Assembly: GCA_945865565.1 (NCBI GenBank)
Contig: CAMBEK010000001.1
Coordinates: forward strand, 62,001 to 126,000
Source: Pseudobacteriovorax antillogorgiicola
GTDB lineage: Bacteria; Bdellovibrionota_B; Oligoflexia; Oligoflexales; RGVZ01
Reading direction: 5' to 3'
Length of the DNA stretch: 64,000 nt
In this document: one piece after another, positions 8,937 through 28,246 of the stretch
Position numbering within the stretch: the stretch's first letter is position 1
Layout of the letters: each line of letters begins with the position of its first letter
Position numbers and translations under genes: made by a program
Notes under the pieces: model-generated
Database searches by the model: none
Told to the model about the DNA's origin: nothing
What the model saw: only the letters and a program-made list of their open reading frames with translations

Positions 8937-9920
8937 GTGTCACAAAAACATCTTTTCATCGCCGACCCGTTGGAAGGGCTGAATTTGCCGCTGGATTCCT
9001 CGCTGCGGATGGCCAGAGCCCTTGCCGCCCGCGGACACCGGGTCTTTTTCACGACCATCCAGGATCTAAGTTGGAGGTCGGACAAGGGTGCTGCCTCGGC
9101 CCGAAGCGTGGAGGCCACTTTTGCCGGCGAGGGCCTCAGACCAGCGCTCTCCGCCAAGGGCTTGCACAGTTTGTCTGAATTCCAGGCAATCCACATGCGC
9201 AAGGATCCCCCCTTTGACATGGCCTACATTGAGGCCACCTGGCTCCTTGATTCAGTGGCCTCAAAGGTCCACATTTATAACCATCCGGAGGCCCTGCGGA
9301 ACTTCAACGAAAAGGTCTCCATCTTGATGTTCCCCAACGACATTCGGCCAGCCCTCGTCAGCTCTGACACTGCCGAAATCATTGATTTTATTGCAAAAGA
9401 TTGTGCCGGAGATGCCGTCATCAAGCCCCTTGCCCTGTTTGGCGGACGCGGGGTGGAGCGGATCTGTATCGGTCCGAAGGGTCTGGAAATGGGCGAGGCC
9501 GCAAAACGAATCACCAAGGTTACCGGCGATGGCCGCGAAAAACGCATCGTGCAGCCGTTTGACGAACGGGTTTTTTCCGGCGAAGTCCGGGCGTTCTGCA
9601 TGGGGGGAGAGCCCATCGCCTGGTGCCTGAAAAAACCGGCGCCCGGGGAATTTCTGGCCAACACTCGAGCCGGAGCAACTTTGGAGTCCTACAAACCGGG
9701 CGCCGAGGAGCTCGCCCGCGTCAAGAATGTTGCTTCGCGTCTGGCCTTAATGGGTGTCCAAGTGGTTGGGTTTGACCTGATCGGGGGCTACATTTCTGAA
9801 ATCAACCTGACGAGTCCCCGCCTTTTACTGCCGGCCGGGGATGTAGCCACAGAGCAAGCCGTCTATGAACGGCTTGCCCTGTGGCTGGAGCGGGATGCGG
9901 GAAAGGCGATGAGTCCCTAG
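8937..9920 (+). CDS. gshB: Glutathione synthetase-like ATP-grasp protein
   Basis: The 327-aa protein begins KHLFIADPLEGLNL, close to the GshB N-terminus. It has an ATP-grasp core with AVIKPLALFGGRGV near 160-175, RIVQPFDERVFSGEVRAF and the C-terminal VGFDLIGGYISEINLTSP, which carries metal-binding Glu and Asn. GshB ligates glycine to gamma-glutamylcysteine. The GDKR motif of typical GshB is GEVR here, so another gamma-glutamyl or amino-acid ligase activity is possible. The start is a GTG with a strong GGAAGGGG site 8-9 nt upstream, preferred over codons further upstream. Its end overlaps the next convergent gene by 4 nt. Confidence 0.8.
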   Translation: MSQKHLFIADPLEGLNLPLDSSLRMARALAARGHRVFFTTIQDLSWRSDKGAASARSVEATFAGEGLRPALSAKGLHSLSEFQAIHMRKDPPFDMAYIEATWLLDSVASKVHIYNHPEALRNFNEKVSILMFPNDIRPALVSSDTAEIIDFIAKDCAGDAVIKPLALFGGRGVERICIGPKGLEMGEAAKRITKVTGDGREKRIVQPFDERVFSGEVRAFCMGGEPIAWCLKKPAPGEFLANTRAGATLESYKPGAEELARVKNVASRLALMGVQVVGFDLIGGYISEINLTSPRLLLPAGDVATEQAVYERLALWLERDAGKAMSP

Positions 9921-10303
9921 ATACACTGTTGGATGTCACGCCCTGCAAGGCGGTTAAGGATCACCACATCCAAGGCAGACTTTCTAGCAACGACCCTGTT
10001 CTTAAAAACTTCGACCTGGGCCTCTTCGACCTTCATGGTCGCATAATCTCGCTTGTACTCGTCCATGGTGATGGCTTGTTTTGCCAAAAGCCTGTTGGAA
10101 GTCTCGAAATTATGTAGCGCTAATGCATATTTGGCCTCTTGTGCGATCAACTCGCTGTTTGCCTCGTCCAATTTGGATTGATACATCACAACGAATGGAT
10201 CGTTATTGATGTCGGAATCGTCTGCCATCAGCGGCTGATTCATTCCGGTCAACAGCAGCACCGCCACAATAAAGTTTGCAAACAGGATCTTTGATACCTT
10301 CAT
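9917..10303 (-). CDS. Small secreted helical (coiled-coil) protein, unknown function
   Basis: This 128-aa protein has a signal peptide (ILFANFIVAVLLLTG) followed by an almost fully helical region, residues 35-120, rich in Glu, Lys and Ala with heptad-like spacing. The segment resembles the hairpin coiled coils of periplasmic adaptor or TolC-like proteins, but it is too short to be either. The ATG at 10303 is chosen because GAGGGG lies about 8 nt upstream; an ATG two codons earlier abuts that site. The first seven residues (MKVSKIL) echo those of the next gene (MQVSKIL). It is the last gene of the minus-strand cluster that begins with the glycosidase-like gene. No function is assigned. Confidence 0.7.
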   Translation of the reverse strand: MKVSKILFANFIVAVLLLTGMNQPLMADDSDINNDPFVVMYQSKLDEANSELIAQEAKYALALHNFETSNRLLAKQAITMDEYKRDYATMKVEEAQVEVFKNRVVARKSALDVVILNRLAGRDIQQCI

Positions 10304-10340
10304 TGCCATCCCCTCAATCTTCTTTGTCCAACTTTACAAA

Positions 10341-11759
10341 TCAGCGAACAATCCGGGTCAGTGTTTGAGCGAAAATTTTCTCAACACCGATGCGAGCCCA
10401 ACGTCCTTGAGCCACCAACTGCTCCTGACCCATGCTGGATTCGACAGATTCCTGCATCGTGTATTCGGCGACACCAAAGTTCTTGCCGTTGGCGATGGCC
10501 ACGACGATTTGGTCGCCAGTGCGAATGGCGATGCCTTTGAAGGTGAATTCCTGAACCTTAAAGGACATGTCATAGGTTTCGCCCTTGGCAACAACTTCGA
10601 CGGTGCCCTGCATTGAACCAAGAGCCTCGGTCTGGGCCGTAAAATTGAACTTGCCTGTCATCGCATCCAGGGACATTTCTGGAATGCTGACGGAACCTTG
10701 ATCAGGATTGGAGGAACCATTGAGCATGGTGCCCACCATTCCGCCCTGCTGTGCTGATTCAAGGGTGGCGATGCCAATGTCTTGGCCCCTGACGTTCCAA
10801 GCCGCAAGGAGTCTTCCGGCAACCAAAACCGCCGGACCAGCAAACTGAGTCTGTCCAAGATTGACACCCAATTGAAGGTACTGACCCATTGAACTGATGG
10901 TCATCTTACCAGTCTGAGCCTCATGGCCACTGAAGATCGAAGCCCATTCACCCTTGAATTCGTTGGGAATGAGCCATTCAATCCAAAGCGGTGCCAGCTG
11001 CTTGCTGACTTCGATGTTTTTTCCCTGGGAGAAGAAAAAGTGCATTTGCTCGCGTCCGTCCTGGGTTTTCACCAGAGCCGCGGCGACACTTTTCTGGCCT
11101 TCCTGGGTGCTGATGTCGCTAAAATACAAGATCGGCTTCGCAATGCTCTGATCGGTAACCTGAGCCGGGTAACGCCAAGCGTTGGCCAATTGCATTTGTC
11201 CAACCTGAGCAATCCCAGGCATCGCAATGCTTGCTTCCTGACTTACTTCCAGTTGGGTGGCATCGCCGGTTGCCTGACCAACAGGCGCCATACCGATTTC
11301 TTGGGAAGGCGAAGAATAAAGCGAAAGACGCTTCACTTGATTTTTGGCTTCGTAGGTCTGCAGTTCAGACCATTGTTCGACGCTCAATCCAGAAACCCAG
11401 AGTCCCTGATTGTTTTCAAAAAGGAGCTTGTCGTTCGTCAAGACGATCGCCGAGTAGCGCGGCGCCCCGTCGCTGGATTCCAGACCCAATTTCTGAGCCG
11501 ACTGAATCTCTCCGCCTTGCGTTGCAACAAAACGGTCGTACGCCACACCCTGTTTTTCCAGGGCTTCCGTGGCTAATGCGATGCCCTGATCTGCGGCCAA
11601 ATTGTCCGTCGCCGAAACAATCAGAACCCGCTGCTGCGATGCGCCCTGGCGAGATTCGCTGGCTGAACGTGGGACGTCATCACGTCCCATGGCTGGCAAA
11701 CCGGCACCAAGACCGGCGGCAAAAAGAACAGATCTCGACAGTATTTTGGAAACTTGCAT
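10341..11759 (-). CDS. Secreted protein with Agd3-type N-terminal region and no deacetylase domain
   Basis: The 472-aa protein has a signal peptide cleaved near residue 25. Residues about 43-270 align with residues about 115-345 of the CE18-like deacetylase at 16619-18838. Both begin with an S-A-T strand (VLIVSATDN against LLLLSATRS). Both have a Y-x-x-I-x-L core leading to LWVSGLSVEQWSELQTYE, against TWLSSLTMDQWAQLREYE, and end with LAPLWIEW against VAPLWINW. The deacetylase DD and HxxxH motifs are absent. In place of the catalytic domain are beta-rich segments with repeated starts (FKGEW, MTGKFNF), possibly two small barrels. The N-terminal part of Agd3 is a carbohydrate-binding module in fungi, so I infer polymer binding. 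GGAGAAG precedes the ATG. Confidence 0.75.
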   Translation of the reverse strand: MQVSKILSRSVLFAAGLGAGLPAMGRDDVPRSASESRQGASQQRVLIVSATDNLAADQGIALATEALEKQGVAYDRFVATQGGEIQSAQKLGLESSDGAPRYSAIVLTNDKLLFENNQGLWVSGLSVEQWSELQTYEAKNQVKRLSLYSSPSQEIGMAPVGQATGDATQLEVSQEASIAMPGIAQVGQMQLANAWRYPAQVTDQSIAKPILYFSDISTQEGQKSVAAALVKTQDGREQMHFFFSQGKNIEVSKQLAPLWIEWLIPNEFKGEWASIFSGHEAQTGKMTISSMGQYLQLGVNLGQTQFAGPAVLVAGRLLAAWNVRGQDIGIATLESAQQGGMVGTMLNGSSNPDQGSVSIPEMSLDAMTGKFNFTAQTEALGSMQGTVEVVAKGETYDMSFKVQEFTFKGIAIRTGDQIVVAIANGKNFGVAEYTMQESVESSMGQEQLVAQGRWARIGVEKIFAQTLTRIVR

Positions 11760-11823
11760 TATTCTTCTCCTGTATTCATGAACAAGACATCAGGCCGGGC
11801 ATTATGCAGGAGGCGTGCCGTAA

Positions 11824-13293
11824 TTATAGATTGAGGAGGATTGTCCCTGAGCGGGCACCGAGCCACAATTCATCAACCATCGCTCCATCATTGAAGGTCG
11901 GGTCGGCTACGCCCTTTATTTTCTTCATCGATCGCGGAAGTTTCAAAAGCACTGCACTCTGGCCGGGATTCACAAAAGCGGACCCGTGTTCAAAGGCTCG
12001 CCACCAGGTCAGCCCACTTGCAGCGGCATCCGCGCCGGGAGTTCCTTCGTCCATCAAAGCGCTGTACAGGGTTTTTTTCGCATCGTTAAATTCAACAGCT
12101 TCAGACATGGGTTTGCCAAGGTAGCCTTTCGTTGATGAGCCCTGTTCGGATTGACCCGTCTCCAGGTTCACAGCGTACTCATCAAACCACCATGCACTGG
12201 CATAGGGCCTGTGGCCGTTTGATGATGACTGCTCGTTGGTAAACGAAAAGTAGCCATCAAACATCAGGGTCGAGGCCAGCGCAAAACGCATCGCGCCGAA
12301 ATCCCTCGGGGAGTCAGAGCTGCCCATGACAATCGATACCCTTGGTTCGGGGGCCGTCCGCATGAAAGAGGCATAATTACGCATGATGGCGCGCCACCCA
12401 AATTTTGATTGGTCGACTTTTTCGGCTCCAAGAAATTGTTCGACCATGATCCCATTGAGGTTATGGACATACGGGTGTCCCGAATTCCATCCACCATTGC
12501 CGACAAGAATCGTCTCGGGCGGAAATAACTCGCGCGAATTCTGAATCATGTTTTTATAGCCTTGGGTCCAAGCAGCGTCGGTGGCAACATCCGAAAGGGG
12601 ATGACCGTCGCCATTGATTGCGATCGCTTGGTTGCCATATTGGTTTTTTAACCACGCGACGGAAGAGGTCGCCCAGTCAAAAAAAATCCCGTCCACCATT
12701 CCCGTAACGATGATATTTTCATTCACGAATCCCGGCAGAAATTTCTGAAGGCTCGTTGTCGGATTTTGAGCGTGATGCCAGACGCCAGGACGCGGTTCGA
12801 ACATGCGAATGGGACGGCCATGCGCATCTCGCATCAGCCATTCAGGGCGCAACTGGGCGACGTACTCTTGAAACAAAGTTGTCGTGGATTGATTCGACCA
12901 GTCGGTGGGGACATCACCCGCAGAGAAATGGGCCAACGTGACGATGTCGGGGTTGCGTCGGCGCCACTTCCCGTCTGGACCAAGATAGGCCGTAAACCTG
13001 CGGACAGCCTCGGAATCAACGATACCCAAATCCCACAGGTGCAACTGGTCAAAAAGAATTTGAGCCTCTCCTCCCGGAAGTCCATATGGATCCGAGATCT
13101 GATAGATGTTCGCCAGCTTGGGAAATCGGTGGCGGCTCAATCGGGCGACCGTCGATGCCTCACGTGCCGTCACGGTGGAACCTCCCTTGCATGGGAGCGT
13201 CAAAATGCCAGCCAACCCCAAGCCCACCAAAAGGCAAAGGCTGCCGAGGAAGATTAGAAGGCGGGTAGTAAACAGGGACTTAAGTTTGTTCAT
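11824..13293 (-). CDS. Secreted or membrane-anchored glycoside hydrolase candidate (GHL15-like TIM barrel)
   Basis: This 489-aa protein starts with a hydrophobic segment (LLIFLGSLCLLVGLGLAGIL) that is a signal peptide or anchor. The body looks like putative glycosidases of the GHL15 type: FDQLHLWDLGIVDSE early, TLAHFSAGDVP, a stretch ending VDGIFFDWATS (acidic residue at the end of a barrel strand), then VGNGGWNSG, GIMVEQFLGAE and SIVMGSSDSP. Substrate and catalytic residues cannot be fixed by eye. Its place beside PelF-like and Agd3-like genes suggests that it acts on the same polymer. The ATG at 13293 has GGAG 5 nt upstream; a longer frame to 13440 lacks a ribosome site. It leads the minus-strand trio and diverges from the glycosyltransferase gene by 77 nt. 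Confidence 0.65.
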   Translation of the reverse strand: MNKLKSLFTTRLLIFLGSLCLLVGLGLAGILTLPCKGGSTVTAREASTVARLSRHRFPKLANIYQISDPYGLPGGEAQILFDQLHLWDLGIVDSEAVRRFTAYLGPDGKWRRRNPDIVTLAHFSAGDVPTDWSNQSTTTLFQEYVAQLRPEWLMRDAHGRPIRMFEPRPGVWHHAQNPTTSLQKFLPGFVNENIIVTGMVDGIFFDWATSSVAWLKNQYGNQAIAINGDGHPLSDVATDAAWTQGYKNMIQNSRELFPPETILVGNGGWNSGHPYVHNLNGIMVEQFLGAEKVDQSKFGWRAIMRNYASFMRTAPEPRVSIVMGSSDSPRDFGAMRFALASTLMFDGYFSFTNEQSSSNGHRPYASAWWFDEYAVNLETGQSEQGSSTKGYLGKPMSEAVEFNDAKKTLYSALMDEGTPGADAAASGLTWWRAFEHGSAFVNPGQSAVLLKLPRSMKKIKGVADPTFNDGAMVDELWLGARSGTILLNL

Positions 13294-13370
13294 TTCGTCT
13301 CCACAGCTGCGGGCGACATCCACAAACCGTGCCGTAGAGGGCCAAAGCGGGGACGAAGGGAGAGTCGGGG

Positions 13371-14645
13371 GTGATTGAAAAGAACATGAGCCAACTTTTG
13401 CCGGTCGATGTCGCAATCTATGTTGAAGGGACGTACCCATTCCAGATCGGCGGGGTCTCTTCTGCCATCCATGGGATCATCGAAGGATTGCCGGATGTCA
13501 GGTTTGGGATCGTCCACTTGGCGTGGACCACTGAAACGACAGGCGAAATGCAATATCCGCGACCGGGAAATCTGGCATGGATAAAAATCATCAGGCTTGG
13601 AAAATTCATCAATGCCTTCGCTGACCTAGTGGGTGAAGCTTATCCCGTGGCCAAGGTGCATCATTCCCATACTTGCGGACTTGCGGGCCTCGCCGCAACC
13701 TTCGCCAAGGATCAACATCCGGGCAGCCGCATGATCCTCAGTGAGCACAGCCTTTACGTGCGTGATGTGCTTCAGGCCTTGGAGAAGGCTGGCTGCAGCC
13801 ACAAGGCGGGACAGGACCTGATCGCTGCGAATGAGGTTCCACCCATCGGTGCTGGCCAGGGAACCCTCAATGAAATGAAAGAGGCGGTGCTGGCCACGGG
13901 GAGGCAAGTGTATGAAAATGCAGACACCATGACCTATCTCTACTCCAGCATCAGAACGGAGGCGCTTCAATACGGTGCAGACATGACTCGCTCCATGATC
14001 ATCCCAAACTCCGTCGATTCGCAAAGATTTGAAAGCGTCTCCCAAAAAAACAAGACAGCCCATGGGGCCTGGCAGTTGGCAGTCATTGGCAGGGTGGTCC
14101 CGGTGAAGGGAATTATTGAGGCCATCGAATGTGCGCGAAAACTGGCTGACAGGGGCTTTGACTTTGAACTGAACATCATCGGCCCCGAAAACGAAGTGCC
14201 TTGCTACGCCGCCTTTTGCCGTGAAAAGGTTGCCCACTTTGGCCTTGAAAACCGTGTCATCTTTAAGCCTAGCATGTCGCCAGAAAAAGCCCTGGAAGGC
14301 ATCGATCTGTTGTTGCTGACGAGTCAGTCAGAGGCCATGCCCCTTGTGGTGCTCGAGGCCATGGCGGCATCGGTTCCCGTGGTGGCCCATGATGTCGGAA
14401 ATGTAGGCGACCTGCTTGGCTCGAATTCGCGAAGCGAAACCACCAGTGCCCCGGCCGGAATCATCGCACCATCGGGTGCGAATCAAAGAAATCCGACGCC
14501 GGCCGAACTAGCTGGCGTCGTCATCGACGTCTTGGGAAACGAAGGGTCCTACCGCGCCATGCGCGCCGCGGGCCCCCAAAGGGTAAAACAATTCTTTGAC
14601 AGGACCGAAGCCTCCAAGGCATGGAAAGCCCTGTATTCCGCCTAA
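13371..14645 (+). CDS. PelF-like GT4 glycosyltransferase (short form)
   Basis: The 424-aa cytosolic protein has the two-lobed GT-B fold of GT4. The PelF-like N-terminus reads VEGTYPFQIGGVSSAIHGII, the linker has ILSEHSLYVRD, the C-lobe starts AVIGRVVPVKGI, and the EX7E motif is present as EAMPLVVLE. It is clearly paralogous to the second PelF-like gene at 22463 (both have a HLAW strand after the first Rossmann turn and a similar C-lobe), but lacks about 110 residues in the first lobe. PelF polymerises UDP-GalNAc in Pel synthesis, so I infer a related hexosamine transfer. The start is GTG with GGGAG upstream; ATG at 13386 is an alternative. The 3' end overlaps the convergent periplasmic gene by 4 nt. 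Confidence 0.85.
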   Translation: MIEKNMSQLLPVDVAIYVEGTYPFQIGGVSSAIHGIIEGLPDVRFGIVHLAWTTETTGEMQYPRPGNLAWIKIIRLGKFINAFADLVGEAYPVAKVHHSHTCGLAGLAATFAKDQHPGSRMILSEHSLYVRDVLQALEKAGCSHKAGQDLIAANEVPPIGAGQGTLNEMKEAVLATGRQVYENADTMTYLYSSIRTEALQYGADMTRSMIIPNSVDSQRFESVSQKNKTAHGAWQLAVIGRVVPVKGIIEAIECARKLADRGFDFELNIIGPENEVPCYAAFCREKVAHFGLENRVIFKPSMSPEKALEGIDLLLLTSQSEAMPLVVLEAMAASVPVVAHDVGNVGDLLGSNSRSETTSAPAGIIAPSGANQRNPTPAELAGVVIDVLGNEGSYRAMRAAGPQRVKQFFDRTEASKAWKALYSA

Positions 14646-16459
14646 TTGTCGGACGAATCGTCCGACACTTTGACGAAGGTGACATCAACCGGATTGCGGC
14701 GACCACCAATAATGTATTGGCCGGTGATTTCGCCGCGTTCAAGTTGCCCCCGAACCTGAAAGAATACCGTTCGTTGACGGCTAGTTAGGTATATGACGCC
14801 TGTTTCAAGGTCGAGATAAACTAAATCAAGTGTCACAAGGTGCTTCTGGATCTTGGGACTGATCATGATGCTGGCGACGTGAGATTTACCATTGCGGGAA
14901 ATTTTAAGTGACGCATCGTAACCAAGAAATTTCCCCTCGTAGCTTCCTTCAAAATCCGAGAACGACATCGGATCAACATTTTGGGCGATCAGATAATTCT
15001 TAATGGAATTCACCCGTCTCCCTGAAAAATTTTGCTCCCGGTGCCCAATCCTCAGAATACCTTTCACAATCAAGTCATCAGAACCTGCCGGACCAGAAGA
15101 AATCCGAAACATCGCGTGCTGCACAGGAATGTCCTGCTGACCCGTTGTAGAGTCACTTAGAGTCGCCGTTTCCTGAACGCTGGTGGCGTGAATTATTCCT
15201 GTGGACCGATCGAAGCTGCTGTAGGCCATCGATGCTGTTATATGCCCGTAGCCCGCCGCCACAATAACCCCCATGGTGTCTGGGCGGGCCACTGAAAAGA
15301 CGCCTGGTCGGCCTTCTATCTCAATTTCGTAAATACCTTCCAGATCCTTTTCGTTAACCATAGCGCCAAGATCGAAGTGATCGGCCAAAGATCGCATCAC
15401 TTTCTCTTGGGACGGCATTCCGTAAGCACCGTACCGTGCTGACAAGTCCCCGGCAATTTCAGCGAGGAATCTAAACTGAGACGGCTTTTGTCGAGCCAGA
15501 TCGAGAGCACGAAAGCTGGCTCCAAGCGCGTCAAAATGATTCGGGTCCATAATCGACATGGCTTTCTTGCCCACCTCAACTTCAAGAGACCCGCCGGTGT
15601 CAATCAGCTTCAGGATAATCAAAGAAACAATCGTCCCTGGTCGCATGGCGACCTCTTCGGGAACATGCCCTGGCAACTGGTCCAACCGCAACTTCGTCAA
15701 GACCAACATCTGGGCAATCTTTGAGAGCAGCGTCTGGTCCTTTTGAAGGTATACTGAACGATTAAACGATTCAAAGGCACTCTGGCAGACCATCGGGCCG
15801 TGAACACCACTCAAGAATTTTTCATAGTCCGCCACCGTCAATTCGCCCAAATAGTTCTCGATCAATGTCTGATGCAATCGGGCCTGAACCCTCGAAAAAT
15901 CATCCGTCGATGGAAACGGGGCCTTGGTCAAAGGTAACGGCTTGTTCAAGGCTTCGATGATTTTCCCCATCCGATCGAACATCGAATAAATCTCCTTGAT
16001 CCCGCTCGCACGCGATGCAATCTTTTCCTGATTCAAGTTGAATTTCATGCGGGTAAGGTCCTGGGACCAACGGGCAAATTCGATCAGAAGCCAGTCAGGA
16101 TCATCCGCAATACTCAGCAGAGGCTCAATTGCCACGGTCATCTTGTCTGCCAAGTCCGTAATCATATCAATGTCCAGCGAACTGAACTTCAGCTCAACCT
16201 GAATTTCAAGGAGCTCGTCGAGAATCTTGAGATAGGGACCTAATTTTTCTTTCGACATGTCAGGGACTGAAGACCGCAACTCAAAAATCACGTCACTCAT
16301 CTCGCTGCGACTAACCCTAGCGCGTTCGATAACAGCCTCTGGTGAAGGCACAATTTCTTGCGCAGTAAGTGGCAAAGCTAGGGAAAAAAATGCTGTGCAG
16401 GTGAACCCCGCGATTTGCATCAAATGGTAGATCGGCTTTAAAAAAGTTCGCACTTTCAT
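14642..16459 (-). CDS. Large secreted protein with helical N-terminal half and beta-rich C-terminal half, unknown
   Basis: The product is about 605 aa and starts with a signal peptide (TCTAFFSLALPLTA). Residues about 35-375 are mostly helical. The last 230 residues are beta-rich and contain two similar openings, LEGIYEIEIEGRPGVF and FEGSYEGKFLGYDASL, each followed by alternating strands, like small lipocalin or avidin-like barrels. The beta segments of the gene at 10341 start in the same way (FKGEWASIFSGHEA), so a shared domain is possible. No catalytic motif is seen. The start is uncertain: ATG at 16459 has GAAGGA directly against it, and the frame is open upstream to 16783. It is divergent from the deacetylase gene and lies inside the polysaccharide locus. 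Confidence 0.65.
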   Translation of the reverse strand: MKVRTFLKPIYHLMQIAGFTCTAFFSLALPLTAQEIVPSPEAVIERARVSRSEMSDVIFELRSSVPDMSKEKLGPYLKILDELLEIQVELKFSSLDIDMITDLADKMTVAIEPLLSIADDPDWLLIEFARWSQDLTRMKFNLNQEKIASRASGIKEIYSMFDRMGKIIEALNKPLPLTKAPFPSTDDFSRVQARLHQTLIENYLGELTVADYEKFLSGVHGPMVCQSAFESFNRSVYLQKDQTLLSKIAQMLVLTKLRLDQLPGHVPEEVAMRPGTIVSLIILKLIDTGGSLEVEVGKKAMSIMDPNHFDALGASFRALDLARQKPSQFRFLAEIAGDLSARYGAYGMPSQEKVMRSLADHFDLGAMVNEKDLEGIYEIEIEGRPGVFSVARPDTMGVIVAAGYGHITASMAYSSFDRSTGIIHATSVQETATLSDSTTGQQDIPVQHAMFRISSGPAGSDDLIVKGILRIGHREQNFSGRRVNSIKNYLIAQNVDPMSFSDFEGSYEGKFLGYDASLKISRNGKSHVASIMISPKIQKHLVTLDLVYLDLETGVIYLTSRQRTVFFQVRGQLERGEITGQYIIGGRRNPVDVTFVKVSDDSSDN

Positions 16460-16618: not shown

Positions 16619-18838
16619 ATGATGATCTGTAGGAAAGTTGCCAGTGGGCTCATCGTGGCCGCTTGTTCCCTGATCGCCCTGTCTCACACGAAGAACCTGC
16701 CGGCGGACCAATCCATCGGTGAAGCGTGTGGCTTGAATTACAACCCACCAAGCCCACAACCCAACACACAGCCGTTTTGGCACGGTGGCGCCATCCCGCT
16801 GGACTTATCCGCCGCTAACGCTGAAATTAACCGGATCGCAATTGATGAGACGAAGGGGTCGGCAAATTTTCTGAAGACACCCGAGCCATGGGTACGGAAC
16901 GCCGTTGAGCGCCCCGCGGTCGGAGAGCATCTGATCAACCCGGCGGGACAAGAAGTCGAGATGAAATTGCTGCTGCTTTCAGCAACCCGGAGCAATAATC
17001 AAGAGCCAGCCCTCCGCCTCGTCAAGGAGGCGCTGGATGGAATTGGAATACCATTCAACCACGTCCACCTCACGGTGGACGGCGCGCGTATTTCAAGTGA
17101 CCCCCTGGACATGGAGTTTCCGTCGCAAGGCGCAGCTCGGCGTGGACGGTATTATGGGATCATCTTGATCAGTGATCTATTGGCTTTCCAGGATAAGGAA
17201 GGGACATGGCTCAGCTCACTAACGATGGACCAGTGGGCGCAACTCAGGGAGTACGAAAAACACTTTCAAGTCCGTCGCGTCGCTGTCGCTGCATATCCGC
17301 GCCCAACCTATGGCGTGGAACCATCGGGAGAACCGTTGACCGTAAAAAATACAATTCTTATGCAGAAGTCCGCCGAACGCTTCTCCACCGGAATGGTCAA
17401 AGAGGCCACGTTGCCGCTGATAGGCTCCTTTCAAAATCCTGCCAAAGTCATCGATCCAACCCTCGCAACACCCATCGCATTGTTCGGCAATCCTGACTCC
17501 AATGGCAACCCAAACCCTGTCGCCGCGGCGATCACTAATTTTCCTGACGGGAGGGAACAACTGAATTTCTACTTTGCGCAAAGTCCATTTCTAATGGCGA
17601 GTTACTATGTAGCACCGCTCTGGATCAATTGGGTGACGCGTGGCCTTTACCTCGGGAAGCGCCGTATCTATCTTAACTTACAGGTTGATGATCTCTTCTT
17701 GCCGAACGGAATGTGGAATGTGCAGAAAAGAATACCGATGGATGACGGACACAGGGAATACCGCGCCACACCCGACGATTTAGATGAACTCGTACTCTGG
17801 CAAAAAGATCAGCTCCAGCGTCTACCGAAGGGAAGCACCTTCAAGGTCGAAATGGCTGTGAACGGAAAAGGAGTGTGGGAGCTTGGGGGCTACACAAAGG
17901 ACGCACTTTATAAATCTGCAAAAAAAAATATTCCCGAATTTCACTGGGTCAGCCACACATTCAGCCACCCCGATCTGGATCGCATTTCGTTCAAACAGAT
18001 GACCGCAGAGATCGTCGCAAACCAAAACTTTTTGCAAGATTTCATTGATGTCGACCATAAAAATTTTTCTCCACATTCCCTTGTAACGCCCCACATTAGC
18101 GGGATTTTCAACAAGGAAGCACTACGGGCACTATTTGAGAAAGGTATTTACAGCATCGTTGGCGACAACAGCCGCCGTGAACTCTGGCCACTTAATCCTT
18201 TCCATGGATTTTTTACGGCTGAACAGACCAATGGATTTGAGGGGATTTTCGTTATACCGCGCCATGCCACAGTCGCCCCCGTAAGCGCCGGACCGGTCCA
18301 GTACCTGCACTCATTTTACAACAGCCTCTATCATGACTTCTGGGGTAAGGACCTGACTTCAGCAGAAATCTTGCAGCTCGAGGCCGAGCGCGTAACCAAA
18401 GCGATCATCGCCTGGCGCCACGATCCGTATATGTTCCACCAGGGAAATCTTTGGTTCTTCAAGTGGATGGACAACCCCGGGCTCGATGGCCGAACGAGGC
18501 ACAGCATCCTGAGTTTATGGACGGAGTTTGTGCTGGCCGAGATCCAACGGTATACAACCTTGCCGGTTCTCAGCTTGAAAATGGATGATATGAGCCTCGC
18601 CCTTCAAGAACGAATGCAAACCGATCGTTGCGACATTCGCCTATTCCTGTCAACAAACCCGCGCCGTCGAATTCGAGTTCATACCAAGTCGGCTTGCAAA
18701 GTGCCTATCACTGGACTTTCCGTTTCTGGAAATCCTGCCGTGACACAGGATGTCTACGGTCCGGACGTGACATCCGTCATTAGCGCTCAACCAAATACTT
18801 CCGTTGAATTTATCCTTCCAACCGACAACCGGATCTAA
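16619..18838 (+). CDS. Agd3-like secreted polysaccharide deacetylase (CE18-type)
   Basis: The 739-aa protein has a signal peptide and then the layout of the fungal deacetylase Agd3. The N-terminal carbohydrate-binding-like region is at about 115-345 and the catalytic region starts at LNLQVDDLFLPNG, with the metal and base aspartates at 357-358. The metal-binding histidines follow in SHTFSHPDLD (His446, His450). Later strands include TPHISGIFNKEAL and a C-terminal beta domain. Agd3 removes N-acetyl groups from galactosaminogalactan; PelA and PgaB do the same for Pel and PNAG with different domain plans. I infer deacetylation of a GalNAc-containing polymer in the periplasm or outside. GGAGAAAG precedes tandem ATGs. 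It heads an operon with the LRR gene (4-nt gap) and the dehydratase gene. It is not PelA: no hydrolase domain is present. Confidence 0.85.
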   Translation: MMICRKVASGLIVAACSLIALSHTKNLPADQSIGEACGLNYNPPSPQPNTQPFWHGGAIPLDLSAANAEINRIAIDETKGSANFLKTPEPWVRNAVERPAVGEHLINPAGQEVEMKLLLLSATRSNNQEPALRLVKEALDGIGIPFNHVHLTVDGARISSDPLDMEFPSQGAARRGRYYGIILISDLLAFQDKEGTWLSSLTMDQWAQLREYEKHFQVRRVAVAAYPRPTYGVEPSGEPLTVKNTILMQKSAERFSTGMVKEATLPLIGSFQNPAKVIDPTLATPIALFGNPDSNGNPNPVAAAITNFPDGREQLNFYFAQSPFLMASYYVAPLWINWVTRGLYLGKRRIYLNLQVDDLFLPNGMWNVQKRIPMDDGHREYRATPDDLDELVLWQKDQLQRLPKGSTFKVEMAVNGKGVWELGGYTKDALYKSAKKNIPEFHWVSHTFSHPDLDRISFKQMTAEIVANQNFLQDFIDVDHKNFSPHSLVTPHISGIFNKEALRALFEKGIYSIVGDNSRRELWPLNPFHGFFTAEQTNGFEGIFVIPRHATVAPVSAGPVQYLHSFYNSLYHDFWGKDLTSAEILQLEAERVTKAIIAWRHDPYMFHQGNLWFFKWMDNPGLDGRTRHSILSLWTEFVLAEIQRYTTLPVLSLKMDDMSLALQERMQTDRCDIRLFLSTNPRRRIRVHTKSACKVPITGLSVSGNPAVTQDVYGPDVTSVISAQPNTSVEFILPTDNRI

Positions 18839-18842
18839 AGAT

Positions 18843-21542: not shown

Positions 21543-22332
21543 TGAAGCCAGCTGGCAGGATCGTTGCGATCCTGCCGGGATTCGCGCAGCTATACTTCGG
21601 TCCCGGCCGAAGTGCATGCGTTATCCTTAATGCTGGGTTGACGCGTTGCATGGCCGACACAATGTCTGCGATCTGCACAGCCTCGCCGGTACCAACGTCG
21701 ATCTCCTTCCACGCCTGATCGAGCGTAGCCAAGGATACGATTGCCCGCGCGGCGTCAGCCACGTGAATGAAGTCACGCCATTCCTGACCGCCATTGTTCA
21801 AGATAAACGGGCTATCTGAACGAATGGCCTCGTCCAGGTGATGCAGAATCGAGAACCGGTCGTCGCCTCCGTACAGATTGAATACGCGGCACGTCACATG
21901 CTCAATTTTATTTGCGGCACAGAATGAGTCGATCATCATTTCGTTCAATTTTTTTATTTTTCCGTAGGGTGTCGCCGGGGGCTGGTTTGTGACTTGCCGT
22001 CCCTCCGCGTCCTCACCGTACACGGCACAGGTGCTGACATAGCAAAACCTGCTGATTCCATGCCTCTTTGCAGCCGTCAGAAGGCGGGCGGTCGTCATGA
22101 TGTTAGACTGCACCACCGACTCGGGATCAGAATCAACCCTTGCGGTCAGATCATAGGCACCATGGATGATCGTGTTTACTGGCCTGCCATTTCGATTTCC
22201 GCCGCTTGCTCCAGAACACAATCCGTCAAGGTCGGTCCAGTCCTCGCGATTGAGCTCGACGATCTCAAAATCTGACTGGGCCATGATCGCGCGGCCCAAA
22301 TTTCCCTTCGCCCCTGACAACAAAATCTTCAT
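21466..22332 (-). CDS. NAD-dependent epimerase/dehydratase (sugar-nucleotide SDR)
   Basis: The 288-aa extended SDR has ILLSGAKGNLGRAI at the N-terminus (GxxGxxG), VNTIIHGAYDL, CYVSTCAVYG (catalytic Ser/Thr) and TPYGKIKKLNE (Tyr-x3-Lys). A C-terminal substrate lobe includes VFNLYGGDDRFSIL and WRDFIHVADAARAI. This is the layout of GalE-type C4-epimerases. In Pel and galactosaminogalactan pathways such an enzyme makes UDP-GalNAc or UDP-Gal, and that is the inferred role. ATG at 22332 has GGAGG 5 nt upstream, which decides the start against a longer frame to 22413. It is divergent from the second PelF-like gene. Confidence 0.82.
   Translation of the reverse strand: MKILLSGAKGNLGRAIMAQSDFEIVELNREDWTDLDGLCSGASGGNRNGRPVNTIIHGAYDLTARVDSDPESVVQSNIMTTARLLTAAKRHGISRFCYVSTCAVYGEDAEGRQVTNQPPATPYGKIKKLNEMMIDSFCAANKIEHVTCRVFNLYGGDDRFSILHHLDEAIRSDSPFILNNGGQEWRDFIHVADAARAIVSLATLDQAWKEIDVGTGEAVQIADIVSAMQRVNPALRITHALRPGPKYSCANPGRIATILPAGFISLPAYLTQHFQIPDLIPASFEHSA
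21554..21576. terminator. Hairpin just past the dehydratase stop (possible terminator)
   Basis: Perfect 10-bp arms GGCAGGATCG and CGATCCTGCC enclose a TTG loop, 12 nt after the stop of the plus-strand operon. There is no U-tract, so a Rho-independent role is unsure. The sequence also codes for the end of the antisense epimerase gene. Confidence 0.4.
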
Positions 22333-22462
22333 GCGTGCCTCCGATGAGGTCGGGGTCAAAGCAAAAATGATTCCTGAATTGGGCTTTTTCGTTAGCCAAA
22401 ATTTACAGCTCAATCTGGTACGGAACGTGCAGCCGAATCAACTCACGGAGGAATTGCCCGGC

Positions 22463-24145
22463 ATGGATCCCAATCAAGAATCGGTCGACGTCGTGATGGT
22501 GACCGAGTGCGGATTTCCATACGTGAGGGGTGGAGTCGGGGGGGTTGTCAATCAAACGCTACGAGGCCTCCCCGAGACAACATTTGGCGTGATCCATTTG
22601 GCCTGGAACAAAAAGACAACCGATGCCAGACGGTACGAAATTCCTCCTAATGTAAAGTGGATTCAGGACATCTATTTATCGCCTGAGGAATTTGATCATG
22701 CGCCCCGCTGGATAAATCTCAGATTCCCATTTCGAAAGTCAGAAAGAATCCACAATGCATCGCTTGCACTGCGCTTCTTCGAATGGATCGATGAAGCAAT
22801 GAAGGGCAATTACGAGCCTCTTATTGATGCTTACTGGCGCTACATGAACCCGAAGACCAGAACCGTGGATCTTTGGCAGATGTTACGGTGTCCGGAATTC
22901 GTTGTGGAATTTGAATCCCGCATCGCAGACCTCGGAATGCCTCTGACCACAACCTTCTGGTTGATGGAAAACTTCCTTTCCATTACCCGAAATCTTTGCG
23001 GGCGCATTTATCCGGTGGGCCAGGTTTATCACTCCCAAACCCAACTGTACGCAGGCCTTGTCGCAGCACTTGGAGCCATGCAACACGGCCGGGAGATGAT
23101 TCTCACCGAGCATGGACTTAATGTTCGTGACAGCATCCACTACATCCGTGAGGCAGGCCACGGCGTTCCCCCAAAAGGACGACCGGGGGATCCAATCAAA
23201 GACGCTTGGGTTTCATGGTTTTGTGAACTTGGCAGATTTGTCTATGGGCAGGCCACGTTTGCCACCTATCAATACCAGCGCAACGTGGATGAGGCGGTTT
23301 CCCTAGGTCTGCCCAGGTCAAAAGTCGAAATGATCTCCAACGGAATTGTTCCCGAGGATTTCGCTGCAGCCCGCAAGCAACGTCATGTGGCAAACACGAT
23401 TCGCAGCGCTGTACTTGATGAAAGGCGTCTGGGGCATCTTTGGCGGCTCGCCTACGTTGGACGCATGATTCCTGCCAAGGGAATCCTTGATCTGATCGAG
23501 GCAGCAGGGATTTTGTTCAAGCAAGGAGATGTTCGTTTCGCACTTGATTTCATTGGTCCGGCGGAAGGGGTTGATGATTTTCTTGCAGAATGCAGAAAAG
23601 CCATTGCCGCAATTGGAATCGAGGAGATTGTCAGTTTCACGGGAACAAAGGATCTCACGCACGCCTTTGGCGTAGTGGATATCATGATCCTGCCAAGTCA
23701 CGCCGAGGCCCTGCCCATCGTGCTCCTGGAAGCGATGGCTTCCTCGGTTCCTATTGTGGCCACGGACGTCGGCAGCATCATGCAGGTGATTCATAACCCG
23801 GTGGCTTGCGAAGGTGAGTTCCGTGACTCCATTGGGCCTGCGGGCTTGGTAGTTCCCCCCATGAATCCCGTCGCGCTGGCAGATGCGATCTCACACCTTG
23901 TCTTGAATCGAGAGTTATATGAATCCTGCTGTGAAAATGGGCCTCTCCGAATTGCTCAAAATCACCGCGCCGAGGACATCATGCGGCAGTACCTGGAACT
24001 CTACCAATCCGTCGCCGAACGCCAAAATGCTGCGTATTCTGGCAATGAAGTTGCGCGCCTTGCGGGCAGCAGCACCCAAATCACGCCGAGAGCTGCTGCA
24101 ACAAAAGTAATGATGTTAAATAATTCGAAAGTCGGTTCAATCTGA
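22463..24145 (+). CDS. PelF-like GT4 glycosyltransferase (long form)
   Basis: The 560-aa cytosolic GT-B enzyme opens with MVTECGFPYVRGGVGGVVNQ, the PelF-type donor-lobe start. It continues with VYHSQTQLYAGLVAALGA, ILTEHGLNVRD, YVGRMIPAKGILDLIEA and the EX7E motif EALPIVLLE. The length is close to Pseudomonas PelF (about 500) and it carries the insert missing from the gene at 13371. PelF uses UDP-GalNAc to build the Pel polymer inside the cell; I infer the same kind of reaction. The start at 22463 has GGAGGA 10 nt upstream, although the frame is open from 22166. The last 145 nt are antisense to the end of the PelG-like gene, and the extra C-terminal tail (after YLELYQSV) lies in that overlap. 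Confidence 0.88.
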   Translation: MDPNQESVDVVMVTECGFPYVRGGVGGVVNQTLRGLPETTFGVIHLAWNKKTTDARRYEIPPNVKWIQDIYLSPEEFDHAPRWINLRFPFRKSERIHNASLALRFFEWIDEAMKGNYEPLIDAYWRYMNPKTRTVDLWQMLRCPEFVVEFESRIADLGMPLTTTFWLMENFLSITRNLCGRIYPVGQVYHSQTQLYAGLVAALGAMQHGREMILTEHGLNVRDSIHYIREAGHGVPPKGRPGDPIKDAWVSWFCELGRFVYGQATFATYQYQRNVDEAVSLGLPRSKVEMISNGIVPEDFAAARKQRHVANTIRSAVLDERRLGHLWRLAYVGRMIPAKGILDLIEAAGILFKQGDVRFALDFIGPAEGVDDFLAECRKAIAAIGIEEIVSFTGTKDLTHAFGVVDIMILPSHAEALPIVLLEAMASSVPIVATDVGSIMQVIHNPVACEGEFRDSIGPAGLVVPPMNPVALADAISHLVLNRELYESCCENGPLRIAQNHRAEDIMRQYLELYQSVAERQNAAYSGNEVARLAGSSTQITPRAAATKVMMLNNSKVGSI

Positions 24146-25752
24146 TCCTGGAAAAGAAAGGCGCCAAGAATCGCCATTTGTGCGATTACAAATCCGATGG
24201 CAGGACCCTCTGCGTTGAGCAGGTAAAGGTGGCATGCCAAAATAAATACCAGACTTGAAAGTCCTGACGAGTAGATGAGCATCCGGTACTGGTCAATCTC
24301 GCTGGGAAATTGCCAGGCAAAAATTCCAAGCGTGAATATCCAGGCAACTTGAACGGCAATAAATAACTCCAGACACATGCCAAGGAACATCATGGGAAGA
24401 ATTTTTCTTGTGGCCTGAAACACAGGGACGCTGCTTTCAGACATCGATCTAAACGCGATCGTCCACATCCTCGACATCCCTGGCGCCAATCGGAGGAAAT
24501 ACCAGTTGCAGAGGATGATCGCAGGCAGCGTGGCTGCAAGAAACTGGGTCGCATTGTGTCCACCGGTAGCCATTTCAGGGAAAACAAAAAGGATCAAGAT
24601 CTTGTCGCCCCAAAATATCGACCCGAGTACCAGGCCGCGTTTGATCTGGGCCCACTTCAAGACCGGGGAGCCTAACTTTAACCCGTCAGGATCTGCATTC
24701 CTTCCAAACATCCGGGCATCGGAAAAAAATGGCCCTGACAAAACCGCACATGCGGCCAATGGTGGAAGAAACCAAACCTCTGGCATCGCGGCTAGAACCA
24801 GAGCATACGCCGCCCACGCACCAATATAGAACTTGTGTTTTTGTTGGGCGAATATATGGACCATCATTAAGGCGAGCAAAAGATGCAGTACCGAAGACGT
24901 GATAAATTCAACTTGGAACCCGGAATCAGTTCCGATGGCGTGGGGCCTGGGGAGTAACACTCCCAATACTGCGGCGATAACGGCTCCTCCAATCATGGCC
25001 CACGGGATTCTCTTCATCAAACAATAGGCCGACCCCGCCAAACCCCGAATAAAAATGTCGTCACCCAGGGCCAAAGAGACTGGCATGATGATCACGTACG
25101 CCAGCCACGGCATGGTGGATCCAGAAGCAAGCCAAAGATCTATTACCGGTGTGCCACCAATACCAGCGCAGGCACCGCCATGGCATTTGGCGCCTCCCGC
25201 TGCGAAGGCAAAAGACACCAGGACTACGGCCATCAATTGAAGGCAGGTCGCCCTCCACCATCCAGAACTTAACGAATTCCCCTGCTGGCCTCCCGGCATT
25301 CCGGACAATTCCAACTTGAACCGGGTCGTGCGAAAACGGGAGTTCAAGGAGTCGACAAGCAGCAGGGCGGACTCGCGGCTGAAATTTGACGGAAGTAGCA
25401 GTGAAAAAATCCGTCGTCCCGATTCGTTGGTGAGGCTGAACCAGCTGCCCGCTTCTTCCCGAGGGTCAAAAGGCTTAGGATAATTCGCGACCACCAACTG
25501 ACCTGACCCGGGTGAACTGATCGTCATGGCTTGTCCCCGAAATCTTGCCTTTAGGGACTGGCCATCGTGGAGTGGCAGATGCGCATTTTTCTTCTCATAT
25601 TTGTCGGGATGCAAATCGAATTCCCGGCGCATTTCGCGGATGACTCCGCCGTTCAATGCGGCCTTTTGTTTAAGCAGACTCGGCCATAAAAAAAATTTTG
25701 CGAGTAACGCGGATAAAGCGAGCACTGCTGTGTGGAGCTGAAATTCTGTCAC
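24001..25752 (-). CDS. Polytopic membrane protein resembling PelG (polysaccharide transport)
   Basis: The protein of about 583 aa has one N-terminal membrane segment (ALSALLAKFFLW), a soluble region of about 130 residues, then about 9-11 further hydrophobic helices. The part around FWGDKILILFVFPE, then a stretch ending with LAATLPAIILCNWYFLRL, resembles the Wzx-like PelG family, which is predicted to move polymer across the inner membrane with PelF. Overall similarity is modest and the soluble insert is unlike PelG, so the call is tentative. The start is GTG 25752 with GGGA 5 nt upstream; an upstream TTG (25830) lacks such a site. The 3' end overlaps the PelF-like gene by 145 nt in a convergent arrangement. 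Confidence 0.6.
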   Translation of the reverse strand: MTEFQLHTAVLALSALLAKFFLWPSLLKQKAALNGGVIREMRREFDLHPDKYEKKNAHLPLHDGQSLKARFRGQAMTISSPGSGQLVVANYPKPFDPREEAGSWFSLTNESGRRIFSLLLPSNFSRESALLLVDSLNSRFRTTRFKLELSGMPGGQQGNSLSSGWWRATCLQLMAVVLVSFAFAAGGAKCHGGACAGIGGTPVIDLWLASGSTMPWLAYVIIMPVSLALGDDIFIRGLAGSAYCLMKRIPWAMIGGAVIAAVLGVLLPRPHAIGTDSGFQVEFITSSVLHLLLALMMVHIFAQQKHKFYIGAWAAYALVLAAMPEVWFLPPLAACAVLSGPFFSDARMFGRNADPDGLKLGSPVLKWAQIKRGLVLGSIFWGDKILILFVFPEMATGGHNATQFLAATLPAIILCNWYFLRLAPGMSRMWTIAFRSMSESSVPVFQATRKILPMMFLGMCLELFIAVQVAWIFTLGIFAWQFPSEIDQYRMLIYSSGLSSLVFILACHLYLLNAEGPAIGFVIAQMAILGAFLFQDQIEPTFELFNIITFVAAALGVIWVLLPARRATSLPEYAAFWRSATDW

Positions 25753-25931
25753 GAGAGTCCCATTCTGTTCACGCACGGGTCGAAAATTTTTAAGTGCAAG
25801 AACAGGGTCAACGGCAGGGATCTTGCACAAAAAGAATCAACTAAAGTTTCGCCGCCGGAATATCGAAGGACCGCTGCGACTGAAGTGTTGGCATTCGCCG
25901 GTTTTAAAATATTTCTTAGAGGAGAAACAAA

Positions 25932-27368
25932 ATGGTCAAAAGAATCTGGTGGGCATGGATACTCGCATCGACTGCGCTATCCACATTTCTTTTCAGCGCC
26001 TGTGGTGCTGAGAATCTTTCTTCCATGCGAAGGTCTGGTGCGAGTACAGCCGCTAACGGGTTGGATGCATCGGCGTCGATACAGACGATTGATCTGACAT
26101 CAACGGCTGTTACTACGCTGACCCCTTCATTGATTCAGGTAAAGCGTGGGACCGTGAGCAAGCAACCCCTGTCTGTCCTGGCAAAAAAGGAGCAATCTGG
26201 GACGGCCGACGACTGGAACACCTATCTTGAATTTACACCGGCAACCTCGGGATCTGCCGCCGTTTTTACGTTCAACCTGCCATCAACGGTCAATGTATCC
26301 AGCATCACGTCCATCAAAGTGTCTACCAATTACAAAGGCCCTGGCCTGAGCACACAGCAGTGGTCATTTCTTTTGTATGACTACACGGCTGCCAAATGGG
26401 TTTCCGTTGGCAATAATAGCCTGGCTGGCAACTGGACGTGGACGTCTTTTGATCTGGCGGGCAAGGGAATCCTGTCGCGTTTTGTGAATGCCACTAAAAA
26501 AATTAGCCTGCGTTACGAGACCTCTACTGCAGTGGACAGCAGTGACATTGATTACCTCGTGATCAACGTAGAGAGTGGTGTCAGCCCTTCTCCAACTCCT
26601 TCGCCGACACCGAGTCCGTCGGCATCTCCGACACCCACTCCAACGCCCCCGGTGAGCGGAGCATGGTGGAAGCCGATTCCGGGAATGAGCTGGCAGATGC
26701 AGTATAGCGGCACTATCGACACCAGCCTGAATGTCCAAATATACATGCTCGACATGTTTGGCACCTCGGCGACAACCATCAGTGCCTTGCAGGCACGGGG
26801 CGTGAAAGTTTTTTGCTACATCGACGGCGGGAGCTGGGAGAGCTACACGCCTGACGCGGCAAACTTTCCGGCTTCGATCATTGGCAAGGAAGTTGGAGGG
26901 TGGCCCGATGAAAAATGGCTCGACATCCGCAGCAAAACTTTGCTTTGGCCGATCATGCGCGCCCGGCTGGACCTGGCCAAACAAAAAGGCTGTGACGGCA
27001 TCTACCATGACTGGGCCGATAGCTACGCAGGAGACACGGGATTCCCCCTCACGGCTCAAGATCAGTTGGTCTACAACCGCGACTTCTGGGTGGTCGAGGC
27101 GCACGCTCGCGGACTGAGTGCTGGTCTGATCAATGATCTCGTTCAAGTCAAAGATCTTGTAACTTACTACGATTGGGCTGTGAACGAGCAGTGTGCGGAG
27201 TACGGCGAGTGCGCCTCCCTAAAGCCATTCATTGATGCCAACAAACCGGTATTCAGTCTGAATTACAGCGGAAATACATCAACAGTCTGCGCGGCTTTGA
27301 ACGCGCTGAATTTCGACGCAATCTTCAAAGATGTAAATTTGGGGGCGTATCGTTTGCCATGCAGATGA
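25932..27368 (+). CDS. Lipoprotein endo-alpha-1,4-polygalactosaminidase-like GH114 with beta-sandwich module
   Basis: The 478-aa protein has a lipoprotein signal (STFLFSACG, lipid Cys near residue 24). A Ser/Thr-rich beta-sandwich resembling a carbohydrate-binding module covers about 45-215, a Pro/Ser/Thr linker 218-240 and a GH114 TIM barrel 245-478. GH114 features are SWQMQYSG at the start, VFCYIDGGSWESY with a likely catalytic Asp298, GCDGIYHDWADS, and YDWAVNEQC with a likely catalytic Glu419. GH114 enzymes (fungal Ega3, bacterial polygalactosaminidases) cut alpha-1,4-galactosamine chains and favour deacetylated regions. In this locus it may trim or release the polymer. GAGGAGA lies 6 nt before the ATG. 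The barrel-type outer-membrane gene follows with a 10-nt overlap. Confidence 0.9.
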   Translation: MVKRIWWAWILASTALSTFLFSACGAENLSSMRRSGASTAANGLDASASIQTIDLTSTAVTTLTPSLIQVKRGTVSKQPLSVLAKKEQSGTADDWNTYLEFTPATSGSAAVFTFNLPSTVNVSSITSIKVSTNYKGPGLSTQQWSFLLYDYTAAKWVSVGNNSLAGNWTWTSFDLAGKGILSRFVNATKKISLRYETSTAVDSSDIDYLVINVESGVSPSPTPSPTPSPSASPTPTPTPPVSGAWWKPIPGMSWQMQYSGTIDTSLNVQIYMLDMFGTSATTISALQARGVKVFCYIDGGSWESYTPDAANFPASIIGKEVGGWPDEKWLDIRSKTLLWPIMRARLDLAKQKGCDGIYHDWADSYAGDTGFPLTAQDQLVYNRDFWVVEAHARGLSAGLINDLVQVKDLVTYYDWAVNEQCAEYGECASLKPFIDANKPVFSLNYSGNTSTVCAALNALNFDAIFKDVNLGAYRLPCR

Positions 27369-28246
27369 TGAAATCTAGTTCGCACGCAATTCGCTTTGTC
27401 AGGTTATGGATCCCCGTGGCCGGCGCCGTGAGTATCATCACCGCGAGCGTCGGCCATGGGGCCGCCACAGAAATCCAAGGAACAGTAGCCCGCCAGACCA
27501 CACGTGGAGAAGGCCGTGATGACTTTCAGGCCCTACGCATGGGAGCGACTTTTTCCGAAGGGGCTTATGGATTTTGGGGGTTCGTTGAAGGCCTGCACGA
27601 CGGCCATGGAGATCAGGCAACCTACGGCGAATTGGCCGGTGTCCGAAGCTTTGGCCACTGGTCATTGAGTGGGGCTGGGGCTGGCGGCACGGATCCAAGG
27701 CTTCGGCCATCCAACATGGTTGTAGCTGATTTAGCCCGGCGCATACCGGAACTCGCAACGAGCATTTACGCTGGATACACAAGAAGCGCTTATGACAGCA
27801 GCGTTCAATCCAGTGATTCGTCGATCTACCGGTTCTACAGAGTGGGCGCCGTGGTGGCTTTCCCCCCGGACTGGAACCTCAACGTTTCCGTTCAACGAAT
27901 CCAAAGAGAGATACTGGGAAATTCAGGAGGGCGGCGAGGCTCGGCCGGTGGACTTTCCCTGACCCGATCTTCCGGAGATCACCGGATCGGGGCAAGTTTG
28001 GCGGCATCGTGTCTGGCCCTTACGGTTTTTTGTCGCGGTGGATCTTTGGAGCGCTACGCAGAATTTTTTATGGACGGGCGCATTGCTCTTGCGCCGCAAT
28101 ACGGATTGATTGGGCGTATGGGCTTTATCAATCAATCAAGTGGCGCGATTGCACCCCCGACGGAAGGATTAACAGAACTGGCGAGCATCCAAAAACCAGA
28201 CACCCGCAGGACTCAGATCTGGTTGGGCGGTTACCGCAAGCTCTGA
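27359..28246 (+). CDS. Probable outer-membrane beta-barrel protein (YaiO-like)
   Basis: The 295-aa protein has a signal peptide ending near HGAA (residue 36). Amphipathic strands follow, alternating with Gly and Asp turns (FQALRMGATFSEGAYGFWGF, ATSIYAGYTRSAY, YRFYRVGAVVAF, YGLIGRMGFI), with aromatic residues at strand ends. The C-terminus is IWLGGYRKL, without a classic terminal Phe. The pattern resembles YaiO-type outer-membrane barrels. As it overlaps the GH114 gene by 10 nt, it is probably co-translated and may help exported polymer or its hydrolase at the outer membrane. Start candidates are ATG 27359, 27365 and 27368. The barrel call rests on strand pattern only. Confidence 0.55.
   Translation: MQMMKSSSHAIRFVRLWIPVAGAVSIITASVGHGAATEIQGTVARQTTRGEGRDDFQALRMGATFSEGAYGFWGFVEGLHDGHGDQATYGELAGVRSFGHWSLSGAGAGGTDPRLRPSNMVVADLARRIPELATSIYAGYTRSAYDSSVQSSDSSIYRFYRVGAVVAFPPDWNLNVSVQRIQREILGNSGGRRGSAGGLSLTRSSGDHRIGASLAASCLALTVFCRGGSLERYAEFFMDGRIALAPQYGLIGRMGFINQSSGAIAPPTEGLTELASIQKPDTRRTQIWLGGYRKL

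Follow-up and report, generated by a model that had tools for sequence, protein, structure and literature searches.

We identified in the window (the whole stretch of DNA analysed, 64,000 nucleotides) a gene for a CBM87 domain that stands without the CE18 deacetylase domain and is joined to a beta-rich half. CBM87 is described as a part of CE18 deacetylases that grips their substrate; here, in an Oligoflexales-type bacterium, it is free and selected for, in a locus whose gene content (CE18, GH114 and two PelF-type genes) looks Pel/GAG-like. Taking all analyses together, we consider it probable (about 60%) that the product is secreted and, without catalysis of its own, binds an alpha-1,4-GalNAc/GalN polymer and acts in trans with the locus enzymes. 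The identity of the domain, its fold match, the missing enzyme half, the purifying selection and the conservation of the gene trio are direct results; secretion, ligand, partner and role are inferred. The first-pass annotation had described a stand-alone module joined to new beta domains, related to a deacetylase encoded nearby, which looked like a duplicated binding module turned into a polymer-binding or scaffold protein. We retain the stand-alone module, joined to another domain and under selection, and a probable polymer-binding role, and do not retain "duplicated" in the sense of a copy of the neighbour. Coordinates of all features are given in Table 1.

Table 1. Features of the stand-alone CBM87 gene and of its neighbourhood (positions in the window)
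Feature	Coordinates	Strand	Evidence and remarks
Stand-alone CBM87 protein	10341..11759	-	ORF, 472 aa (472 codons)
Probable Sec signal peptide, residues ~1-26	11682..11759	-	MQVSKILSRSVLFAAGLGAGLPAMG; by-eye reading of the sequence
CBM87 domain, residues 44-262	10974..11630	-	Pfam PF25116 (CBM87_Agd3); fold match 6NWZ
Beta-rich half, residues 266-472	10341..10964	-	Probably two LIC10280-like repeats, ~266-362 and 363-472
GHL15 family glycoside-hydrolase-like protein (trio gene 1)	11824..13440	-	PF14885, 73 bits
130-aa helical protein, probably secreted (trio gene 3)	9917..10309	-	Adaptor-hairpin likeness
PelF-type GT4 glycosyltransferase	13371..14645	+	NF038011, 209 bits (cut-off 100)
~600-aa protein, probably secreted, locus-conserved	14642..16444	-	Orthologue L009 5350-7164
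Agd3-type deacetylase (CBM87 + CE18), catalytic motifs present	16619..18838	+	PF25116, PF25115; 6NWZ, E 8e-53
Second PelF-type GT4 glycosyltransferase	22166..24145	+	NF038011, 199 bits (cut-off 100)
Multi-spanning membrane protein	24001..25830	-	Hydrophobic segments read by eye
GH114 endo-alpha-1,4-galactosaminidase with GH114-associated N-terminal domain	25932..27368	+	PF03537, 242 bits; PF14741, 121 bits

A CBM87 domain without an enzyme half

The gene, for which the first-pass annotation named no strand, lies on the minus strand; its ATG is immediately preceded by an AGGAG ribosome-binding site, and the opposite (plus) strand across 10341-11759 contains several stops. The protein matched PF25116 with 113 bits over profile positions 4-214 of 214 (curated cut-off 27.6 bits), and the Agd3-type deacetylase of the window (hereafter local Agd3) matched it with 112 bits. 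Residues 42-263 aligned to residues 114-339 of local Agd3 with 31% identity (E 4e-36), and the aligned stretches include a shared motif (LAPLWIEW in the stand-alone protein, VAPLWINW in local Agd3). This bears out the earlier statement that the two N-terminal halves are related and share an APLWI.W ending, and the distance between the two genes, put at 5 kb, was measured as 4.9 kb. A phmmer comparison with the solved Agd3 structure 6NWZ gave an E-value of 4.5e-11.

Beyond the CBM/CE boundary the two are no longer alike: local Agd3 goes on with TRGLYLGKRRIYLNLQVDDLF and the stand-alone protein with IPNEFKGEWASIF. The catalytic DD and HxxxH residues are missing, as had been noted: PF25115 (Agd3_CE), which scored 214 bits in local Agd3, did not match the stand-alone protein, and its sequence holds no counterparts of the VDD and HxxxH motifs of CE18. 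Profile searches recognised no catalytic domain of any kind in the chain. We also considered GATase1-type enzyme activity and rejected it, because the protein has no cysteine anywhere (count 0) and a Cys-His-Glu triad is impossible without one.

We built an AlphaFold2 model of the protein on six sequences (mean pLDDT 57, with about 72 for the CBM87 part and lower values for the C-terminal half). When the model was compared to the PDB with Foldseek, 6NWZ ranked first (E 1.1e-12), and VIA-align superposed the two with a Z-score of 22.1 over 216 residues (rmsd 2.7), followed by human NDST1 (16.6), ThuA-like proteins (14.0) and, lower, PelA (12.2). The first-pass annotation had named the lack of a structural match to the N-terminal domain of CE18 enzymes as the result that would refute it. 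The superposition gave the opposite outcome: the best match in the PDB is to that domain of 6NWZ. In the model, the CBM87 domain is a seven-stranded alpha/beta/alpha, GATase1/ThuA-like fold, as published for the CBM87 of Agd3 (PMC7229062).

The CBM87 of Aspergillus Agd3 (6NWZ) shares with the stand-alone protein the Pfam family, the alpha/beta/alpha fold and residue W292, and has a similar type of gene cluster (CE18, GH114), but the stand-alone protein is without CE18, has Tyr in place of D242 and Asn in place of W344, and carries after its CBM87 a beta-rich half of other origin. The CBM114 of Bacillus cereus PelADA and the alpha/beta domain of PelA resemble CBM87 in general fold and in their link to deacetylases of alpha-1,4-GalNAc polymers (PMC13254593, PMC12022489), but they are separate sequence families as these papers describe them, and both lie within an enzyme chain.

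Origin of the module

In a tree of CBM87 domains, the stand-alone proteins grouped with the Agd3 of a Bacteriovoracaceae genome (L010; support 89/93), apart from local Agd3. Forcing the stand-alone proteins and local Agd3 together cost 8.1 log units (AU p 0.107), and the same constraint after removal of L010 and the fungal row cost 3.2 (AU p 0.148). On these sequences, a copy of the neighbouring Agd3 is disfavoured and not rejected; the AU tests point away from a local copy yet fail to reject it, and therefore the "duplicated" of the first-pass annotation, which the tree does not support, cannot be stated as fact.

The C-terminal half

Both AlphaFold runs, one of them on the C-terminal half alone (pLDDT 40), predicted with low confidence only strands and a final helix for residues 266-472, in agreement with the earlier reading of a different beta-rich half after the module. 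It is distinct from CE18, as that reading had it; the word "new" holds less well, because the half may consist of LIC10280-like repeats, a weak likeness. Used as the sole query, the half matched NCBIfam LIC10280_fam, a family of small Leptospira proteins, at residues 382-421 (E 9.5e-5). The orthologue from a Pseudobacteriovorax genome (L009) matched it as a whole protein in two stretches (E 1.2e-5), and its repeats, each taken as sole query, gave E-values of 0.013 and 0.0017, with overlap between the profile stretches that they matched, so that both L009 repeats and repeat B of the window have a weak profile match (20-25 bits). The scores as a whole, 18.4-25.5 bits, come nowhere near the 100 bits that the family requires and indicate distant likeness only. 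An hhalign comparison of repeat A with repeat B gave a marginal p of 0.087, and shuffle tests for an internal repeat (p 0.02-0.39) and a repeat-B HMM were likewise suggestive at most. We read the half as probably two LIC10280-like beta domains of about 100 aa each.

We tested whether this half is homologous to the C-terminal end of the ~600-aa neighbour (14642-16444) and found no support for it. Searches of 43 genomes of the order and of plasmids yielded no convincing homologues of the half beyond the genus. A LIC10280-like protein of L034 had matches to SAKe proteins, which we take to be designed repeat proteins and set aside.

Gene neighbourhood and probable site of action

The gene lies 64 bp after the GHL15 gene and 31 bp before the gene of the 130-aa helical protein. 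The order GHL15, CBM87, hairpin protein is conserved in L009 (where the orthologue of the hairpin protein is at 11433-11843), and GHL15 followed by CBM87 was seen in the second orthologue-bearing genome, L008. Judging by the spacing, the trio is presumably co-transcribed. The 130-aa protein resembles a lone alpha-hairpin of RND_mfp/MacA periplasmic adaptors, without a lipoyl or barrel domain; against NCBIfam TIGR01730 (RND_mfp) it gave an E-value of 3.6e-4 and its orthologue 2e-4, with 1.4e-4 for MacA, all below cut-off.

The wider locus fits the published pattern of bacterial Agd3 operons, which combines CE18, GH114, a glycosyltransferase and a membrane protein (PMC7229062). The two PelF-type glycosyltransferases of this one locus differ from each other, and each exceeds the PelF equivalog cut-off. 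The membrane protein at 24001-25830, without significant match in Pfam or NCBIfam, is possibly a PelG-like exporter. The ~600-aa protein matched no Pfam or NCBIfam family either; a 713-aa ORF start listed for its gene, at 16783, overlaps the start of local Agd3, the orthologue has 604 aa, and the listed start is probably too long. Directly 3' of local Agd3 lies a leucine-rich-repeat protein (18804-20312, plus strand), kept in L009 (1530-3008), and 3' of the GH114 gene a 295-aa protein (27359-28246, plus strand) that reads like an outer-membrane beta-barrel and has no family match.

The stand-alone CBM87 protein is probably secreted, as suggested by the signal peptide; reading the N-terminus by eye, we found no lipobox Cys. 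This signal, the division of the chain into two parts with probable C-terminal repeats, and other products of the locus that may act at the surface, the leucine-rich-repeat protein among them, would suit an extracellular matrix protein or adhesin whose CBM87 grips released polymer and whose beta repeats grip the cell surface or a substrate. We regard this as unlikely: no export signal besides Sec was recognised in the protein, and its ties to a hydrolase gene and an adaptor-like hairpin gene fit the periplasm better. The neighbouring genes slightly favour the periplasm over the outside as the site of action.

Cleft residues and ligand

The CBM87 of Agd3 binds hexamers of alpha-1,4-GalNAc/GalN when expressed alone, with weak measured affinities (Ka 180-400 per M) (PMC7229062), and the module can therefore bind without an enzyme half. 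The analogous domain of B. cereus PelADA binds acetylated and partly deacetylated oligomers (PMC13254593). We mapped the published aromatic and acidic cleft residues of Agd3, D242, W292 and W344 (the mapped chain positions hold exactly D, W and W) onto the stand-alone protein, where Y148, W195 and N248 are the equivalents and only W292 is identical.

Of the three positions mutated in fungal Agd3, D242 and W344 differ here. These differences count against sugar binding, as do the weak affinities, and they are among the arguments for its main rival: that the CBM87 fold has lost sugar binding and serves as a protein-interaction platform in a periplasmic export or modification complex. The same fold family holds many GATase-like domains that do not bind sugar, an adaptor-like hairpin gene adjoins the CBM87 gene, and for the comparable alpha/beta domain of PelA a contact with PelB has been proposed, either in place of sugar binding or in addition to it (PMC12022489). 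We nevertheless rate such a platform as improbable, if less so than the adhesin. The six aligned CBM87s share Y136-E137, Q129-W130 and D234-G235-R236 without variation, and W195 is retained. At position 242 most of the bacterial CBM87s examined carry Tyr or Phe, and at 292 they carry Trp or Tyr, so that Y148 and W195 are nothing unusual for a bacterial member, and Asn at the W344 position was also found in two Agd3s (L010 and L038). Local Agd3 itself deviates more, with Ala, Phe and Phe at D242, W292 and W344, and in this it stands apart from almost every other CBM87 examined. By comparison of residues, the pattern favours a retained cleft in the stand-alone protein.

For polymer binding in trans, we propose the following course. 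The PelF-type transferases would make an alpha-1,4-linked GalNAc/GalN polymer, part of which the neighbouring Agd3 would deacetylate. The CBM87 domain of the stand-alone protein most likely holds this polymer, and its C-terminal beta repeats most likely touch a partner, which could be another protein of the trio (GHL15 or the adaptor-hairpin protein), the cell surface or another chain of the polymer. The protein may in this way hold or guide the polymer in trimming, export or matrix assembly. A more specific and rather doubtful version is that the trio of GHL15, stand-alone CBM87 and lone hairpin forms a periplasmic accessory complex, of a kind not described before, in a Gram-negative system that is Pel/GAG-like, with the CBM87 protein as a separate guide subunit on which local Agd3, with its A/F/F residues, depends. 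The guide subunit would then pass the chain to the hydrolase or exporter, polymer binding having moved out of the deacetylase.

The free module suggests that polymer holding and deacetylation may be separable onto different proteins. This small natural protein lends itself to testing what the cleft does in the absence of an enzyme, and is a candidate probe for alpha-1,4-galactosaminan.

Conservation and distribution

Only two further genomes, both of the same genus, yielded a full-length orthologue: L008/G001 (labelled Oligoflexales, 97%) and L009/G003 (labelled Pseudobacteriovorax, 67%). The genus has a fourth genome, G002, of which about 10% is possibly missing; it had no match to the CBM87 gene, CE18 or GHL15. 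We computed dN/dS by the Nei-Gojobori method: between the window and L008 it was 0.08 for the CBM87 part and 0.10 for the C-terminal half (dS 0.20 and 0.13), and between the window and L009 it was 0.08 and 0.13, values that are rough because dS is near saturation. Both halves are under purifying selection in these three genomes of one genus. The lack of the catalytic domain that the other examined CBM87 proteins have could suggest a functionless remnant of a broken Agd3 duplicate, but the selection data, with dN/dS about 0.1 for each half, already contradict this. The ORF is moreover intact in three genomes, has a fixed place in the gene trio and keeps a long conserved second half that is not CE, so we consider a remnant highly improbable.

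A search for other proteins with CBM87 and no deacetylase domain, which the first-pass annotation had suggested and which covered plasmids, 58 genomes of the phylum and 369 from the phylum to which L011 (a Bdellovibrionales genome) belongs, returned only the orthologues of this genus; this is a limited sample of bacteria, since the one broad scan of genome contigs detects close relatives only. Viral contigs yielded no relatives of the stand-alone protein or of local Agd3 and none of a LIC10280-like protein, and phages yielded none of local Agd3. Among the papers listed by searches for CBM87, in a collection with few subscription papers, no title or abstract concerns an enzyme-free CBM87. In usual CAZy wording a CBM is part of a carbohydrate-active enzyme, with stand-alone cases as allowed exceptions; this chain, in which no catalytic domain was recognised, departs from that wording. 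Stand-alone CBMs are known from other families, and a stand-alone CBM87 thus puts a known module into a new architecture.

Bacterial Agd3-like CE18 enzymes (Deinococcus, Thermus, Burkholderia, Bdellovibrionales) likewise have a CBM87, but all those examined keep CE18, which the stand-alone protein does not. The CBM87 enzymes on Deinococcus and Thermus plasmids have much the same gene company as the window locus, including PelF and endo-galactosaminidase genes nearby. Among ten Agd3-like proteins scanned from other genes and genomes, nine had CBM87 and CE18 matches (in two of them one domain was slightly below cut-off). The tenth, from L010, was scanned from inside its CBM87, which was found separately, and has a CE18 shortened by a stop: in this Bacteriovoracaceae MAG (L010 10001-11416) the Agd3 frame stops within CE18, the profile reaching only position 257 of 366, which reflects either a broken gene or an assembly error. 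One Bdellovibrionales genome carries two Agd3 paralogues (L030 1411-3345 and L011 9695-11875), and a Deinococcus aquaticus plasmid carries two adjoining Agd3-like genes (L039 5295-7457 and 7542-9860).
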